Of a stretch of 52,371 nt of DNA, positions 8,089 through 28,206 are shown piece by piece. The notes under the pieces are model-generated. The model was not told the DNA's origin. It searched no databases and worked only from the letters and a program-made list of their open reading frames with translations. The position numbers were made by a program, and so were the translations under genes. Source of the DNA: Candidatus Endomicrobium macrotermitis (GTDB taxonomy: Bacteria; Elusimicrobiota; Endomicrobiia; Endomicrobiales; Endomicrobiaceae); assembly GCA_031271405.1 (NCBI GenBank), contig JAISVT010000049.1, positions 1 to 52,371 of the forward strand, in the 5' to 3' direction. The first letter of the stretch is position 1. Each line of letters opens with the position of its first letter.

Positions 8089-8102
8089 AATATTCGTATA
8101 TT

Positions 8103-8262
8103 TTCCCTGCAGCGTTGGTGATTTGTTTTAAGCGTGTTTATTCCTACAAGTCTATTCAGGAGAACAGCAGTCGAGCGTATGCTCGCGGGCACATGCCACT
8201 GTATCTCACTTAAAAAAATGGGCTTTAAACCGTTTAAGACGCACGGCGCTGCGGGGTTTTTC
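8103..8262 (+). ncRNA. ssrS: 6S RNA (regulator of sigma-70 RNA polymerase)
   Basis: The gap between zapA and rarA folds like a 6S RNA. A closing stem pairs CCCTGCAGCG (8105-8114) with CGCTGCGGGG (8247-8256), fully paired counting one U-G. Two long, weakly paired strands form the central bubble, and a terminal hairpin CGAGC-GTAT-GCTCG lies at 8172-8185. A T run follows at 8257-8261. The location between zapA and fau (rarA intervening) matches the known 6S neighbourhood. 6S mimics an open promoter and sequesters the housekeeping polymerase in slow growth. The exact ends are approximate. Confidence 0.75.
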
Positions 8263-21037: not shown

Positions 21038-21066
21038 TTGTCTTTAATCCTCGTTTTTGGTAAAAT
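21038..21066 (+). promoter_or_regulatory. Promoter of the response regulator block (leaderless start)
   Basis: TTGTCT (21038-21043), a 17-bp spacer and TAAAAT (21061-21066). The ATG at 21073 lies 6 nt after the -10 box, so the mRNA should begin at or within a base of the start codon. No ribosome-binding site is present. Confidence 0.7.
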
Positions 21067-21072
21067 TTCACT

Positions 21073-21444
21073 ATGATTAAAATAATGCTTGTCGATGATG
21101 AAGTTTACGCCAGAGACAATATGGCGCGTATTATACAAAGGAAAGGGTTTTTCGTTTGCTGCGCCGGCGATGCCGACGAAGCTCTTGAGGTTTTTAAAAA
21201 AGAAAATCCGGATATTATCTTTTTGGATCTTATGCTGCCGGATTTGGACGGCGACCATCTGTTTCCGTATTTTAAAGAAATTAACCCTTCGGTCAGCATT
21301 TATTTTATAACCGGTTCGGGGATAGTTTTTACCGAAGAAAAGGCAAAAGAACTCGGCGCTGCCGGATATATGCAAAAACCCGTTTATCCGGAAGATTTGT
21401 TTAAACTTCTGGAAGAAATAAAATCTGCGAATGAGGCGAAATGA
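21073..21444 (+). CDS. Stand-alone response regulator receiver protein
   Basis: 123 residues, a single CheY-like receiver with no output domain. The acidic pocket is D8/D9, the phosphoacceptor D52 (IIFLDLMLPDLDG), with the switch Thr at T80 and Lys at K102 (QKP). No histidine kinase is in the window. It shares a 4-nt ATGA overlap with the next gene, an exported protein of unknown function. It appears to head a block ending in a beta-1,3-glucanase, so it may signal by protein contact rather than DNA binding. Its ATG appears leaderless. Confidence 0.92.
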   Translation: MIKIMLVDDEVYARDNMARIIQRKGFFVCCAGDADEALEVFKKENPDIIFLDLMLPDLDGDHLFPYFKEINPSVSIYFITGSGIVFTEEKAKELGAAGYMQKPVYPEDLFKLLEEIKSANEAK

Positions 21445-22229
21445 GAAAATTTATAGTTTTGGTTTTATCGATATGCGTTTTCGCCAATGCCGCTTTTGCT
21501 TACGGCGGAAGAAATTATGAAGAATTCAACGAATATAGGTCTAAATACAGAATACTGTACGGCCTTTTGCTTGTAGTCGGCGGCGGATTTTTGGCTTATG
21601 ACGGTTTCAGAACGGTAAAAATCGATATTTCTAAGCCTGCGGTAAGCTTTACCGCTAGCGGTATGTGGAATTATACTCCATTTGGTGGGGTAGAGCGAGT
21701 ATTAAATGCAAAAGGTACTATTACAAACACAGGGAATGTGACTTTGAAGCAGCTTACATTTGAAGTCAGATATAGAAGTACTGGATATCAGTCGGGTTTT
21801 TATTATCCGGCCCCCGATTATAGAGGAAATCCTACAGGATTTCCTGTCGATTTTACAGGTATAGGGAGTATCCTTTACACATCAGAAGTTGGACAGATCA
21901 ATAATTGGGAAAATCACAGCTTTTATTCTCGTATGGATGCGAATGGCAATGATCCTTTCGGTAGCCCTGATCCTTATTGGTCTGACGATGGGAGTCTTGT
22001 TGAAATTGTAAACGTCAACTATACCTGGGACAAAAAATATAAAGAAGAAATGAATAACGTATATGAAGGCCTTGCCGGAGTCGTTCTTTTCGGCGCAGGG
22101 GTGTATGTTTTGGTCGATTATATTGTGAGCTTGAACCGCTTCAATTATTATATGAAAAAACACGGAATGGACATATACGTTGAAAACAATTACGACGAAT
22201 TCCAATTGAAAATGAGCAAGAGGATATAG
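21441..22229 (+). CDS. Exported/membrane protein of unknown function
   Basis: 262 residues. It has a signal peptide (cleavage likely after FAF... AFA, residue 20), a hydrophobic stretch at about 38-54, an extracytoplasmic domain (about 60-205) with a possible beta-rich fold (KGTITNTGNVTLKQLTFEVRY resembles an extracellular 'FxxE' additive domain), and a second hydrophobic helix at about 209-230. I do not recognise a family. Its start overlaps the response regulator stop. The middle of the gene is more AT-rich and uses different codons than the flanking core genes. Confidence 0.75.
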   Translation: MRKFIVLVLSICVFANAAFAYGGRNYEEFNEYRSKYRILYGLLLVVGGGFLAYDGFRTVKIDISKPAVSFTASGMWNYTPFGGVERVLNAKGTITNTGNVTLKQLTFEVRYRSTGYQSGFYYPAPDYRGNPTGFPVDFTGIGSILYTSEVGQINNWENHSFYSRMDANGNDPFGSPDPYWSDDGSLVEIVNVNYTWDKKYKEEMNNVYEGLAGVVLFGAGVYVLVDYIVSLNRFNYYMKKHGMDIYVENNYDEFQLKMSKRI

Positions 22230-22267
22230 TTTTTATATAACCATTGATCACCCGAGAAAAACAATAA

Positions 22268-24844
22268 ATGAATCTTATAAAAACTATTATTATAATTTTT
22301 ATTCTTTCAATCGTTTTTTCTATTCCTGTATTTGCAAAAGAAATAAAAAAAGACACGGATTTTTTCAAAAGCAGAACGATCAGTGAAGCACAAAACTTTG
22401 GTGTGAGAGGAGCGATAAGAATAAACCGGTTTGATGGCGTTAATGAATTTTTTGTTAAAGACACTGGGCTTTTATACACAGTAAATTATGATAGTTATAC
22501 CGTAACCACTACTCCTTTCAGCATTCCTACGACTATTTATTCGACAAATAGCTATTACGGGACGCAGGATCATAGAAATCTCAAAATCTCAAGAGATATT
22601 AATAATGACGTTTATGTTGCCGGCAATGTTTCCCCGGAAGCTAGGCTGAGTTACAATGAAGGTTATGATTCGATAAAAAAATATACAGGCAATATTGAGC
22701 AATGGAGCATTACTCCCAGAACTACACTTAAGTCGTGCATAGAGCCTGAAGGGCTTATTCTTTCAAAAAACAATGATTTTTTATATGCCGTTTATAATAA
22801 CAATGGTGTTCCCGGCGGACAAAGAGAGATATATAAAATTAATAAACAAACGGGAGCCTATTCTGTTATATACAGCGCTCCTATGCCAACTACTTCGGAA
22901 AGAACTCTTTTGCTTAGGGCAATAACCGATGAAGATGACAATATTTATCTTTTATCTGTAAAAGACGGGACAAAACTCGTTTTACAAAAAATAGATTCTT
23001 CGGGAACACAGATCTTTGTTAAGGAGTTTTCCGGTAAAAGCGGGCTGCTTGTCAGTCCTATAGATATTCAGTTTTTGAATAACGGGTCAGTCTTTATTGT
23101 AGCAGAAGAAGGGTGGGAGCCTATCGGAGTCAGAAATTATTTACATAATATTGTTGCTTTGCTTGATAAACAGGGAAATATAATTTCAAATATTATTATT
23201 GATAGGGTTCTTGATATGAGTCTTGGGAATGATGTCTATATGATGGGTTTTGTTGGAGCGGATGAAAGCGGGATTTATTATCTGTTTGCTTATAGTAATG
23301 CTCTATATATGGGCAGCACAAGGGCAGGGGTTTCAAGGTTAATCAAGTATAATTACCAAAATCAGGTGGTTCAAACTTTATATTTGCCCGGGAGATACAG
23401 CGCAGATTCGGGTATGATTTCTGCGTATGGTTGGCTTGACAGCATTCAGATATCTAAGCAGAATCCATGGAGAGAACCGTTTGTAAAAAACAAAGTCCTA
23501 TATGTGCCTTACATAGATAACTATAATGAAGCAGACCGTGAAAATACTTTTAGGGCGTTATCATATAATGTTGACATCAATAATGCTCTTACCTCATTAA
23601 AATATAGTGATAATGCAAACTTTGTAAATAAAGTGTCCAGTCCGGCTTATATAACCAAACCCGATCATGATATGACGTTTAGGGTGAAGTATAAAAATTT
23701 CAGTGAAAAAGCTCCAATATCCGGTTTCCCCAGAGTCCATATTTACGCTGACGGAGTTCCTGTAGCAGACAGTCCTTTTCCAATGTCTGCCGTTGATCCT
23801 GTTGATATTGACTATGCCAAAGGGGTTGATTATTCTGTTTCAGTCAAGATGATTTGCACAGCTCAAACGGAATATTCTTATGAAGTTGAGTTGACGGACG
23901 GAATAGAAACATTTAACAGCGATAAGTATATCCTGCCAAATTATATTCCTTCAAAACCTATAGCAATAAGCCCGAATGCTGTAGGTGAAAAAGTCAGTAA
24001 TATGAATGTTGATTTAGAGTGGCTTTGCGGTACTTCGAGCGTAACTTATACTTTACAAATGGCCGGTCCTTACGATAATCTTACAAGTACTTATTCATGG
24101 GTAACAAAATATTCAGGCAGCGGTACAAAACATACCTCTGCGCAGCTTGAACTTGATAAATATTATTATTGGAAAGTCGCTGCGGCAAATTCTGCAGGCA
24201 TTACCGAAGAGAGCGAAGTTTTCTTTTTTAGGGCATTTGATATACCGCTTCCTCCGGTAAAAGTAAGCCCTGACAAAGATGTAGTTGATATAATCGGAGC
24301 GGCAAATGTTCTAATCGAATGGTTTTGTCCGACTCCAAACGTAACGTATTCGCTGAAAATAGCAGGGCCTTATGACAATGCCGTAAGCAGTTATACGTGG
24401 ACGGAAATATATAACGGTACGGGTAGATATCGTACCGTTCCGGCGGAATACGGCAAACACTATTACTGGAAAGTCTTGGCCTCGAATTATGAGGGCGATA
24501 GTGCGGAAAGCGATATATTTCATTTTAGTACTGCAAATATAGGGAAAAAAGCTTTCAATGCTCCAAATCCTTTTAATCCGGCGAGAGGGCAGCAGACGAG
24601 ATTTGTTTTTGAGATGCCCGAATCCGGAACGGCGCAGATATCGCTCTATTCGGAATACGGCGATAAAGTATGGGAATCCGAAACGTTTTATAAACCGTCA
24701 GGTCAAGGTTTTTCTGAAATCATATATGACGGTAAAGACAATTCGGGAAAAGCATTGTATAACGGAACATATCTTGCGGTTATAACAAAAAAATACAACG
24801 GAAAGACAAGTGTGGAAAAATGCAGAATCTTGGTGATAAAATGA
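22268..24844 (+). CDS. Large exported protein: propeller-like region, tandem FN3-like repeats, FlgD-type tail
   Basis: 858 residues. Signal peptide with likely cleavage after VFA (residue 24). Residues about 60-450 carry repeated strand-rich segments typical of a beta-propeller (for example DEDDNIYLLSVKDG). A beta domain covers about 462-558. Two homologous FN3-like modules follow at about 560-655 and 658-752; both contain YDN...Y/SYxW and KxYYWKVxAxN. The C-terminus (759-858) begins APNPFNPARGQ and has the FlgD Ig-like/sorting-type layout. The function is not known; a surface or secreted binding protein is inferred. It overlaps the glucanase gene by 4 nt. Confidence 0.82.
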   Translation: MNLIKTIIIIFILSIVFSIPVFAKEIKKDTDFFKSRTISEAQNFGVRGAIRINRFDGVNEFFVKDTGLLYTVNYDSYTVTTTPFSIPTTIYSTNSYYGTQDHRNLKISRDINNDVYVAGNVSPEARLSYNEGYDSIKKYTGNIEQWSITPRTTLKSCIEPEGLILSKNNDFLYAVYNNNGVPGGQREIYKINKQTGAYSVIYSAPMPTTSERTLLLRAITDEDDNIYLLSVKDGTKLVLQKIDSSGTQIFVKEFSGKSGLLVSPIDIQFLNNGSVFIVAEEGWEPIGVRNYLHNIVALLDKQGNIISNIIIDRVLDMSLGNDVYMMGFVGADESGIYYLFAYSNALYMGSTRAGVSRLIKYNYQNQVVQTLYLPGRYSADSGMISAYGWLDSIQISKQNPWREPFVKNKVLYVPYIDNYNEADRENTFRALSYNVDINNALTSLKYSDNANFVNKVSSPAYITKPDHDMTFRVKYKNFSEKAPISGFPRVHIYADGVPVADSPFPMSAVDPVDIDYAKGVDYSVSVKMICTAQTEYSYEVELTDGIETFNSDKYILPNYIPSKPIAISPNAVGEKVSNMNVDLEWLCGTSSVTYTLQMAGPYDNLTSTYSWVTKYSGSGTKHTSAQLELDKYYYWKVAAANSAGITEESEVFFFRAFDIPLPPVKVSPDKDVVDIIGAANVLIEWFCPTPNVTYSLKIAGPYDNAVSSYTWTEIYNGTGRYRTVPAEYGKHYYWKVLASNYEGDSAESDIFHFSTANIGKKAFNAPNPFNPARGQQTRFVFEMPESGTAQISLYSEYGDKVWESETFYKPSGQGFSEIIYDGKDNSGKALYNGTYLAVITKKYNGKTSVEKCRILVIK

Positions 24845-27800
24845 ACAATATTATGAAAAAAACAGGAATATGTTTTGCCGTTATTATGTTAACAGCGTCT
24901 TTAGGAGCTGTTGTTTTTGCCGCTCCGCAAAATCCTGACTCTTCTCTTCTTCGCAATGTCCCTTCCGCAATGCCTAGCCCTACGGCAAGGATGTCTGTCC
25001 AGCCCTATGCGTATCCTACAAACAGGTGGTGGGGCGCTTCGTATATTGATAATATGCATAGCGGGTCTGCACAACAAGCAACTCATTCTACAATGATGTC
25101 ACTGGGTACGGCTAACATAAAATTTATAAAAGATATATATAATACGGATAAGGTTGGCGTAGGCTATCAGCTCATAGCCTCAAGCGCCGGTGTAAGGTCA
25201 GGCGGAAATGATTTTGGTCAGGCTCCTACGGGTATGTTACAGTTATGTATTAGTTCTGCCCCGAATATGAAAGCATATATTCAAAATCCGGCACCGCTAA
25301 AAGTAACGTCATTCTCCGATTGGTCTGTAACCGCGGAAATAAGCGATACCGTAAATGCTAATGTAAAAATGACTACGACTTTTGTAAAAGGCGGAATTTT
25401 CACATATAGCGTTTTTTCCGATAGGACATATCCGTATTTAGCGTTGTGGCCTGCATCTCCTACGATAATATCTATGACGGACGGAATAATTATATCACAA
25501 GGCGTCCCGGGGCAGGAGCAGTGGTATGCCGTATACGCTCCTTCCGGGACAACTTTTTCGACGCTTGACGGCGGATGGACGCAGGGAATAAATTTGCCGG
25601 CAGGAGAGAGGTATCTTGTAACTGCCTATCTCGGCACCAGGTCGGAACTCTCGGATACCGATGCAAGAAATTTATTTAATGCGTATCGCCCGTACGCGTA
25701 CAATTTTATAACAGACACGAAAGCTACTTGGACAAAAAACAGCGATTTGTCAATTACTACGACATTTGAATATAAAACGGAACCAAAACGGACAGATATT
25801 GACTATCAGAACGGAAATACCCTGTTTGCTTTGTATCCGCATCAATGGAGAAATAATACTCTGCTGTCTGCAAAGCTTAAGGAATATACAACTCTTCGCG
25901 GAAAAATGCAGGTTTACAGCGGAAAGTCTTTTCAGACAAAACATAATTTTTACGGCGTACTGCCGCATTTGACTTATGAAGTTCCGGCGTCAAGCCGTTC
26001 TGTGTTCGACACATACATTAATAACGAAAAGTCTTTTAATGTAGCAGGCGGTTTTAATAACACATACCGCAGGGGCAAAACAATTGCGAATGCGGCAAAT
26101 CTTATTACCGTTTTTCATCAGGCGGGTAAAATTACCGAACGCAACGACATGATAGCTAAGTTAAAAACCGAGCTTACTTCGTGGTATAACGGTTCAGGCC
26201 ATTTCTTTCAGTATGACGGCACATGGGGCGGAATAATTCCTAATCCTACCAGTAAGGACAGCGGAGACGGAGGCAAATTCGGGTTCGGCGAGGAGATGTA
26301 CAACGACCATCATTTTCATTACGGATATTTCATCTATGCTTCGGCGATACTTGCAATGTATGACCAAGAGTTTGCCTCAAGCGATAAGTATAAAAAAATA
26401 ACTAATTTGCTTGTAAGAGATTTTGCAAGCCCCGACAGGCCCGGTGAAAACGGCAATAACAGTTTCCCGTTTTTAAGAAATTTTGACGTTTATGAGGGGC
26501 ACAGCTGGGCAAACGGAAAAGGCGCCAGCGATAACGGAGATGACGGAAGCGATCAGGAATCGATATCTGAAGCAATGAATGCATGGGCGGCAATTTATCT
26601 TTGGGGCGTTGTGACAAACAATGATGAATGGATAAAGCTCGGTATGTACGGATATGCTACCGAAAGCAGAGCTTCGGATGAATATTATTTCGATATATAT
26701 GATGAAACTTACCCGGCTGCTTATACGCACCGCGGAGGCATTTTATTCGACAGCGCTTTAAAATACATAACTCATTGGAACTCTACGGCTCCGCAGGAAA
26801 AATACGGGATATGGGTACTTCCGCTTACTCCGTCTATGTTGTATATGGGTTATGATACGGCGGCGGCAAATAAGTTTTATACGAAAATGAGCGAAGAGAC
26901 AGTAAGTCAGAGTACTTCTACCTGGAGGGACATTCTGTTAAGGTATAAAGCTCTGTACGATGTTGATGGAGCTTTGTCCGATTGGGGTAATATGCCGGCA
27001 GCAACCGAAGGCAGCAGCCTGTCTTTTTCATACAATTTTATTCATTTTTTCAGAGAATACGGGCAAGTCAGCACGGATTATATTTCAAACAGCCCGTTTT
27101 TTACGGCGATGAAAAAGGGCAGCCAAAATACTTTTTTTGCTTTTAATAACACTTCCGGTTATAAAACTTTTGACGTCTATAATGCGGGCGGAATTTCATC
27201 TGTAGGCAAAATGGAAGTCCCGCCGATGACCACTTTTGTCGCGGTTTCAACAAACATTGCCGGCGGTAACTTTATTCCTCTAAAATACGATTCTTTAGGC
27301 GCGATGTATTATGACAAAAACGCGGGCTGGTATGCTTTGGGCTTGCCGAAATATACCGATAAAGTCGCAATATCTTCATTTGCCGCTCCCGCGACAAATC
27401 CGGATTGTATTTATTTCCCTGCGGCTTTTGAAGTAAAGGCCGCCGCAAATAATATAAGCGAAACTGCCGTTTATATTGACGCCGCGGATCTCCATTTTTC
27501 AAGCGGGACTGCCGATAAAATAAGGCTTGCCTATTATCATGCGCCCGAATCGTTCGATTATCCGCAGCAGGAAACGATAATCAAATCTTCCGGCACCGAT
27601 ACCGCAAGTTTAAGAATAAAAGCAAATATAAACGCCGCGGGAAAGTATGTTTTAGTGATGCCTTTTTTCAGCGATATTTACAATCTCGGCGGACAGATAA
27701 CAGTTAAAGGGAGCCCTGCCGGGAATATCGAAGTTCACATTTACGATACTGTTCAAAATACTACTTCTACGGCAGTCACTGCTATTGACGGTAAGTACAG

Positions 27801-28206
27801 CATAGCAAATGCAAAACATTTAAGAGCTTATATTATTACGCCGGTAAGCCGTATTTACGAATTTGAACCTAAAAATTTCAGCTATACCGTGGAAGCGGCT
27901 TCAAAAAGCGATATTAATTTTGAGGCAACTCCTTTAAATAAAAGCATTTACGCTTACCCCAACCCCTATAAACCGTCCAGGCACGGCAATTCCGGGATCA
28001 GGTTTGCCAATCTTAAAGCCGGCGCGCAGATAAAGATTTTCAATATCGCGGGGGAAATGGTTTTTGACGCTAAAGCCGATGCCGACGGCGACTATATGTG
28101 GGACGTTCAAAACAAGTCGGGCTACAAAATTGCTTCCGGAGTGTATATATACCACATAGATTCAGACGGTAAAGTAACAAAAGGCAAAATCGCGATAGAA
28201 AGATAG
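24841..28206 (+). CDS. Secreted GH81 endo-beta-1,3-glucanase with FlgD-type tail
   Basis: 1121 residues. GH81 enzymes cleave beta-1,3-glucans such as laminarin, callose and fungal wall glucan. Signal peptide at 1-27. The N-terminal beta domain has NRWWGAS. The catalytic part has YNDHHFHYGYF from 487 (D489), FDVYEGHSWANG from about 548, and DGSDQESISEAMNAWAA with E573 and E577, the two Glu spaced by four as in known GH81 active sites. A carboxypeptidase-regulatory-like domain starts about 950, and a tail with YPNPYKPS (1039 on) resembles the tail of the upstream protein. The ATG overlaps the upstream stop (ATGA). The upstream in-frame ATG-like start at 24820 is rejected. Confidence 0.93.
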   Translation: MNNIMKKTGICFAVIMLTASLGAVVFAAPQNPDSSLLRNVPSAMPSPTARMSVQPYAYPTNRWWGASYIDNMHSGSAQQATHSTMMSLGTANIKFIKDIYNTDKVGVGYQLIASSAGVRSGGNDFGQAPTGMLQLCISSAPNMKAYIQNPAPLKVTSFSDWSVTAEISDTVNANVKMTTTFVKGGIFTYSVFSDRTYPYLALWPASPTIISMTDGIIISQGVPGQEQWYAVYAPSGTTFSTLDGGWTQGINLPAGERYLVTAYLGTRSELSDTDARNLFNAYRPYAYNFITDTKATWTKNSDLSITTTFEYKTEPKRTDIDYQNGNTLFALYPHQWRNNTLLSAKLKEYTTLRGKMQVYSGKSFQTKHNFYGVLPHLTYEVPASSRSVFDTYINNEKSFNVAGGFNNTYRRGKTIANAANLITVFHQAGKITERNDMIAKLKTELTSWYNGSGHFFQYDGTWGGIIPNPTSKDSGDGGKFGFGEEMYNDHHFHYGYFIYASAILAMYDQEFASSDKYKKITNLLVRDFASPDRPGENGNNSFPFLRNFDVYEGHSWANGKGASDNGDDGSDQESISEAMNAWAAIYLWGVVTNNDEWIKLGMYGYATESRASDEYYFDIYDETYPAAYTHRGGILFDSALKYITHWNSTAPQEKYGIWVLPLTPSMLYMGYDTAAANKFYTKMSEETVSQSTSTWRDILLRYKALYDVDGALSDWGNMPAATEGSSLSFSYNFIHFFREYGQVSTDYISNSPFFTAMKKGSQNTFFAFNNTSGYKTFDVYNAGGISSVGKMEVPPMTTFVAVSTNIAGGNFIPLKYDSLGAMYYDKNAGWYALGLPKYTDKVAISSFAAPATNPDCIYFPAAFEVKAAANNISETAVYIDAADLHFSSGTADKIRLAYYHAPESFDYPQQETIIKSSGTDTASLRIKANINAAGKYVLVMPFFSDIYNLGGQITVKGSPAGNIEVHIYDTVQNTTSTAVTAIDGKYSIANAKHLRAYIITPVSRIYEFEPKNFSYTVEAASKSDINFEATPLNKSIYAYPNPYKPSRHGNSGIRFANLKAGAQIKIFNIAGEMVFDAKADADGDYMWDVQNKSGYKIASGVYIYHIDSDGKVTKGKIAIER

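Follow-up and report, generated by a model that had tools for sequence, protein, structure and literature searches.

A conserved receiver, membrane protein and GH81 gene cassette in Endomicrobiaceae and its possible role in producing a surface beta-1,3-glucanase

A stand-alone CheY-like receiver (REC), an exported membrane protein whose family has not been described (B) and a predicted GH81 beta-1,3-glucanase are encoded by a real, co-inherited gene unit in the Endomicrobiaceae. We describe it from a window of 52,371 nucleotides (the whole stretch of DNA analyzed), whose contig belongs to genome G000 (1.89 Mb, 64 contigs) of an Endomicrobium (Endomicrobiaceae, Elusimicrobiota). The interpretation toward which we lean, if only by a little, is that this translation-coupled REC-B-GH81 cassette, joined in some Endomicrobium by the gene for an accessory protein (C), yields a surface beta-1,3-glucanase controlled by a dedicated phospho-receiver. 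We favor it as the best explanation because the trio recurs in 14 genomes amid reshuffled neighbors, its members co-occur, the GH81 module has probably been exchanged within it, T9SS-like genes are present, and a receiver-linked export system provides a precedent (PMC10951265).

Table 1. Features of the cassette region, with positions in the window
Feature	Position	Strand	Remarks
Promoter-like site TTGTCT-17-TAAAAT, extended -10	21038-21066	+	immediately 5' of REC
REC, stand-alone CheY-like receiver	21073-21444	+	Pfam Response_reg; D8/D9/D52/T80/K102 invariant
B, exported membrane protein, undescribed family	21441-22229	+	signal peptide, helix, Ig-like domain, TM helix, conserved basic tail
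C, exported beta-rich protein, Ig/FN3-like repeats	22268-24844	+	tail related to T9SS/FlgD_ig tails; accessory
GH81, predicted endo-beta-1,3-glucanase, C-terminal T9SS type A sorting domain	24841-28206	+	alternative start 24820

The placement of the four genes given by a sequence-only reading of this DNA was confirmed from the ORF coordinates: REC and B overlap by 4 nt (ATGA), 38 nt separate B from C, and C overlaps the GH81 gene by another 4 nt (ATGA) if the latter begins at 24841 rather than at the other possible ATG. That reading had also drawn on the shared direction of the genes, which is true but carries little weight alone, since the + strand holds all the main genes in the window; we therefore rejected common strand as evidence for a unit. 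Its single strong promoter was overstated, as the TG-extended site directly before REC is a 9/12 match and promoter-type matches in the region show a modest excess over shuffles (34 vs 24.3, sd 4.4). The site is nevertheless credible because G002 and G003, the nearest cassette-bearing relatives, keep it with identical spacing to the ATG. The REC ATG falls at about the expected RNA start, and a transcript from this site may be leaderless; REC paralogues in G000 and G002 have a similarly leaderless upstream layout. Elsewhere in the window, a 6S RNA match (8101-8261) scores barely above its gathering score (47.2 vs 46.4 bits).

As had been proposed, a lone receiver heads the block. REC is 123 aa long, Response_reg (E 7.8e-24) is its sole family over cut-off, and the five residues given in Table 1 are invariant among the 17 sequences aligned, making up a full phosphorylation site. 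The cassette holds no kinase gene, and a sensor kinase encoded elsewhere would phosphorylate REC. Because it has no output domain, we infer that REC acts by binding a protein. One alternative is that REC regulates transcription of the unit through such a partner, with B doing no more than anchoring or chaperoning the enzyme; the conserved promoter directly before REC means that the operon could be autoregulated, but a profile scan found no DNA-binding domain in REC and the cassette holds no conserved DNA-binding partner, and we consider this quite improbable.

REC has relatives outside the cassette. In G000, a close paralogue is oriented divergently from an aldehyde dehydrogenase gene, after which comes a 7TM-GAF histidine kinase (C24, L141, 14318-14695 and 14933-18588), and the same arrangement is found in G002 (C3, L142, 7697-8074 and 8309-12133). 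This kinase is a possible candidate for the REC subfamily, and nothing links it to the cassette REC. Another paralogue on the same G000 contig (L141, 5424-14140) is divergent to a 2759-aa protein with no Pfam match over cut-off.

The description of B as an unknown exported membrane protein also stood: it has a signal peptide and a TM helix, no curated Pfam or NCBIfam family scored over cut-off, and a PDB sequence search gave no match. Among the 60 relatives searched, B is found in Endomicrobiaceae only, in genomes named Endomicrobium, Endomicrobia, Proruminimicrobium and Ruminimicrobiellum from termite guts, rumen and other sources. In its structure model (mean pLDDT 79), two helices flank an Ig-like domain; the signal peptide precedes the first helix, and a C-terminal hairpin follows the second. 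A fold search returned common Ig-like matches only (best Foldseek E 5e-3), and the VIA Z of 7.7 may reflect merely a common arrangement. Of the two helices, the second is more strongly hydrophobic, and every member examined has a basic stretch behind it (net +2 to +7). The Ig domain, which contains few cysteines, is acidic. The positive-inside rule places the basic tail in the cytoplasm; B would accordingly span the membrane by one clear TM helix and hold its Ig domain in the periplasm.

Genes for B also occur apart from the trio. One adjoins thrS directly after lptC-lptA-lptB-like genes in G005 (L109, 4368-5186), and copies in G027 adjoin thrS (L111, 7512-9300). We rejected B as a regular lptB-thrS neighbor, as this setting was seen in G005 only among the lptB loci examined.

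The neighborhood is conserved in relatives. Complete, ordered and on one strand, REC-B-GH81 is present in 14 genomes including that of the window (G000, G002, G003, G004, G006, G009, G012, G013, G015, G017, G019, G023, G026, G031), usually with 4-nt overlaps at the junctions. A contig gap splits the cassette of G021, where the end of B lies just before GH81, and in G030 REC-B sits at a contig end, the contig stopping after B. The earlier suggestion of one unit therefore holds for a linked unit that is conserved across relatives and includes a predicted exported beta-1,3-glucanase, but not for C, which is limited to G000, G003 and G032 and was rejected as a core member. The beta-1,3-glucan sensing that had been attributed to the unit was not supported.

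Other genomes depart from this order. In G027, where two B copies lie at other sites, REC is directly 5' of GH81; G011 lacks REC and has the order B-GH81-GH81; a schlafen-like gene separates REC and B in G032; G005 has B alone, with no REC or GH81; and several reduced, probably endosymbiotic genomes have no cassette. G001, assembled as one contig of 1,588,979 bases, carries three GH81 genes but lacks both REC and B. A GH81 gene can therefore exist without REC and B, whose part would be that of a regulator or helper.

Co-occurrence was scored in the 28 Endomicrobiaceae genomes searched with all three queries, with a threshold of >190 bits for the REC subfamily. This subfamily is present in 15 of the 28, every one of which also carries B and GH81, while among the 13 genomes without it B is found in 2 and GH81 in 3, one of these being G022, whose contig starts inside the GH81 gene. 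Fisher tests on the 28 genomes, with kinship not corrected, gave p values of 3.6e-6 for REC/B, 2.2e-5 for REC/GH81 and 7.2e-5 for B/GH81.

Such patterns could in principle arise passively and without any functional connection among the genes, if close spacing and a shared promoter preserved an inherited order or if the block spread as a single piece. In the termite clade the cassette often follows rnhB-yraN and precedes ccdA, and a yraN/ccdA site common to several members fits passive linkage, as does the G001 GH81 gene that adjoins yraN with neither REC nor B beside it. The upstream neighbor differs, however, in nearly every genome of the rumen/bioreactor clade, where there are at least six different contexts: an RNA methyltransferase (G009), a DegT aminotransferase (G013), a divergent M24 peptidase (G012), argininosuccinate synthase (argG; G026), a divergent Na/H exchanger (G031) and a divergent dnaE (G006). 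The presence patterns of REC, B and GH81 are also nested, and the GH81 module was probably exchanged while REC-B and the tail stayed (see below), all of which leaves passive linkage very improbable in our view. Rumen/bioreactor loci that could be read further have a gene of ~312 aa after GH81, and the one scanned (G009) encodes an M23 peptidase with LysM domains.

A different possibility is that REC-B regulates the envelope or the T9SS at large and acts on many cargoes, GH81 being merely an adjoining cargo gene. REC may be older than the cassette, as other families of the order have related lone receivers close to rnhB and comM (G038, G040); B stands alone between lptB and thrS in G005; and G000 encodes several other T9SS-like tails together with PorV-family proteins. 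Against this, the trio stays together, with GH81 directly after B, in a clade whose neighborhood is reshuffled, and the REC subfamily was found without GH81 in 0 of the 28 family genomes searched. We regard a general regulator as rather unlikely.

The proposed assignment of the enzyme to GH81 was borne out. The protein matches PF17652 with an E of 1.2e-57 (196 bits vs the curated cut-off of 25.6), and its motifs NDHHFHYG (D496) and DQESISEA (E580, E584), numbered from the alternative start at 24820, align with PDB 6fop and BH0236 (e.g. 5t4a). We take these three to be the catalytic residues of GH81, and the window protein, which keeps them, is accordingly predicted to be a beta-1,3-glucanase. 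The two large proteins had been said to carry similar FlgD-type tails; the tails are indeed related (26% identity, single-comparison E 7e-8), but a T9SS type A sorting domain (TIGR04183, 31 bits vs cut-off 23) is the better description of the GH81 tail, and the C tail matches FlgD_ig/CHU_C weakly, below cut-off. The structure model of C has a mean pLDDT of 59, and its FN3/Ig-type matches are a rough guide. A search of the accessible literature for GH81 in Endomicrobia found no paper, and the Endomicrobia genome paper contains no glucan, glycoside or secretion terms.

Related tails and enzymes are found elsewhere in these genomes. Many relatives encode a ~400-aa protein whose tail is ~50-60% identical to that of C (L071, L072, L074, L077, L080, L087 and similar loci); with C as query, no separate copy was found in G000 or G003, both of which have C. 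The cassette GH81 of G026 has no recognizable T9SS tail, and neither do the ~1300-aa GH81 genes without REC or B beside them in G000 (C63, L143, 5983-9942) and, as relatives of it, in G015, G017 and G027.

Phylogenies suggest that the catalytic module has a history of its own. In the REC+B tree, G000, G002 and G003 form a clade with support of 100/99, a grouping that is rejected when the catalytic domains of GH81 at these loci are tested (p-AU 4e-8). This p value is somewhat flattering, as the tested clade was chosen after the catalytic tree had been seen, but the likelihood gap of 231 is large. The catalytic tree instead places G003 with G004 and G017, and G000 and G002 with the non-cassette GH81 of G027 and G001. 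Over the last 100 residues of GH81, which take in the sorting domain, the three genomes share 67-73% identity, and the tail tree, which is short with long rows, does not reject their clade (p 0.63). Because the catalytic tree conflicts with REC+B and the tails do not, we conclude that the catalytic module was probably replaced within a REC-B-tail chassis that itself stayed stable. The catalytic pattern could also stem from differential loss of tandem GH81 copies, which exist in G001 and G011, but it would hardly explain the tail common to G000, G002 and G003.

Several sequence matches point to a T9SS-like system in Elusimicrobiota. G000 encodes three PorV-family proteins over cut-off, several further T9SS-like tails and a 1781-aa SprA-like protein (C16, L167, 4465-9810) that matches over three stretches with an E of 1.4e-39 and 135 bits, under the cut-off of 200; SprA-like matches were obtained in 35 of the 46 genomes searched. 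A PDB sequence search with this protein returned nothing meaningful, and searches for the GldL and GldM motor and the PorU sortase (peptidase C25) gave no match, in control genomes as well. The accessible portions of the literature on T9SS and Elusimicrobia describe no T9SS for the phylum. Autotransporter beta-domain proteins, some with Chlam_PMP repeats, lie near GH81 or SprA-like loci (L099, 10690-14500; L146, 4561-5730; L168, 1503-4844).

Taken as a working scheme, phosphorylated REC would bind a partner, most likely the conserved basic cytoplasmic tail of B, whose periplasmic Ig domain would then affect release, folding or export of GH81. The enzyme would leave via a T9SS-like pathway and be held at the surface, where it could cut the beta-1,3-glucan that gut contents hold as fungal walls or plant callose. 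A narrower version, in which the lone receiver binds the new-family protein B and thereby gates export of a single T9SS cargo, as a dedicated phospho-switch for one enzyme, strikes us as unlikely. That GH81 travels with REC and B does suggest a dedicated switch for making or displaying a surface enzyme, and the cassette hints at glucan degradation by gut Endomicrobia that are not endosymbionts. REC, B and GH81 offer a testable partner set for how bacteria couple signaling to surface enzymes, and B represents an undescribed conserved membrane protein family.

In Bacteroidota, polysaccharide utilization loci with hybrid two-component regulators encode a glycan-active surface enzyme together with a signaling protein. 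The cassette is alike in both respects, but it has no SusC/SusD pair, hybrid kinase or DNA-binding output, and we rejected a SusC/SusD-type locus on finding neither protein among the cassette genes and neighbors scanned. With the GH81 endo-beta-1,3-glucanases of PDB 6fop and BH0236 (5t4a), the window enzyme has its catalytic domain and residues in common, and it differs in its own T9SS-type tail, extra C-terminal domains and REC-B cassette. The closest parallel to REC is the PorX/PorY system of the Bacteroidota T9SS, in which a phosphorylated receiver binds the membrane component GldL/PorL (PMC10951265, PMC5005315); in both cases a CheY-like receiver is associated with enzymes that carry C-terminal sorting domains and are exported to the surface. 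PorX also contains an alkaline-phosphatase-like (PglZ) output domain, and it is not known to be tied to any single cargo gene. REC, consisting of the receiver only, was rejected as PorX: it stands alone without PglZ, lies in the operon of its cargo and adjoins a different membrane protein, B.
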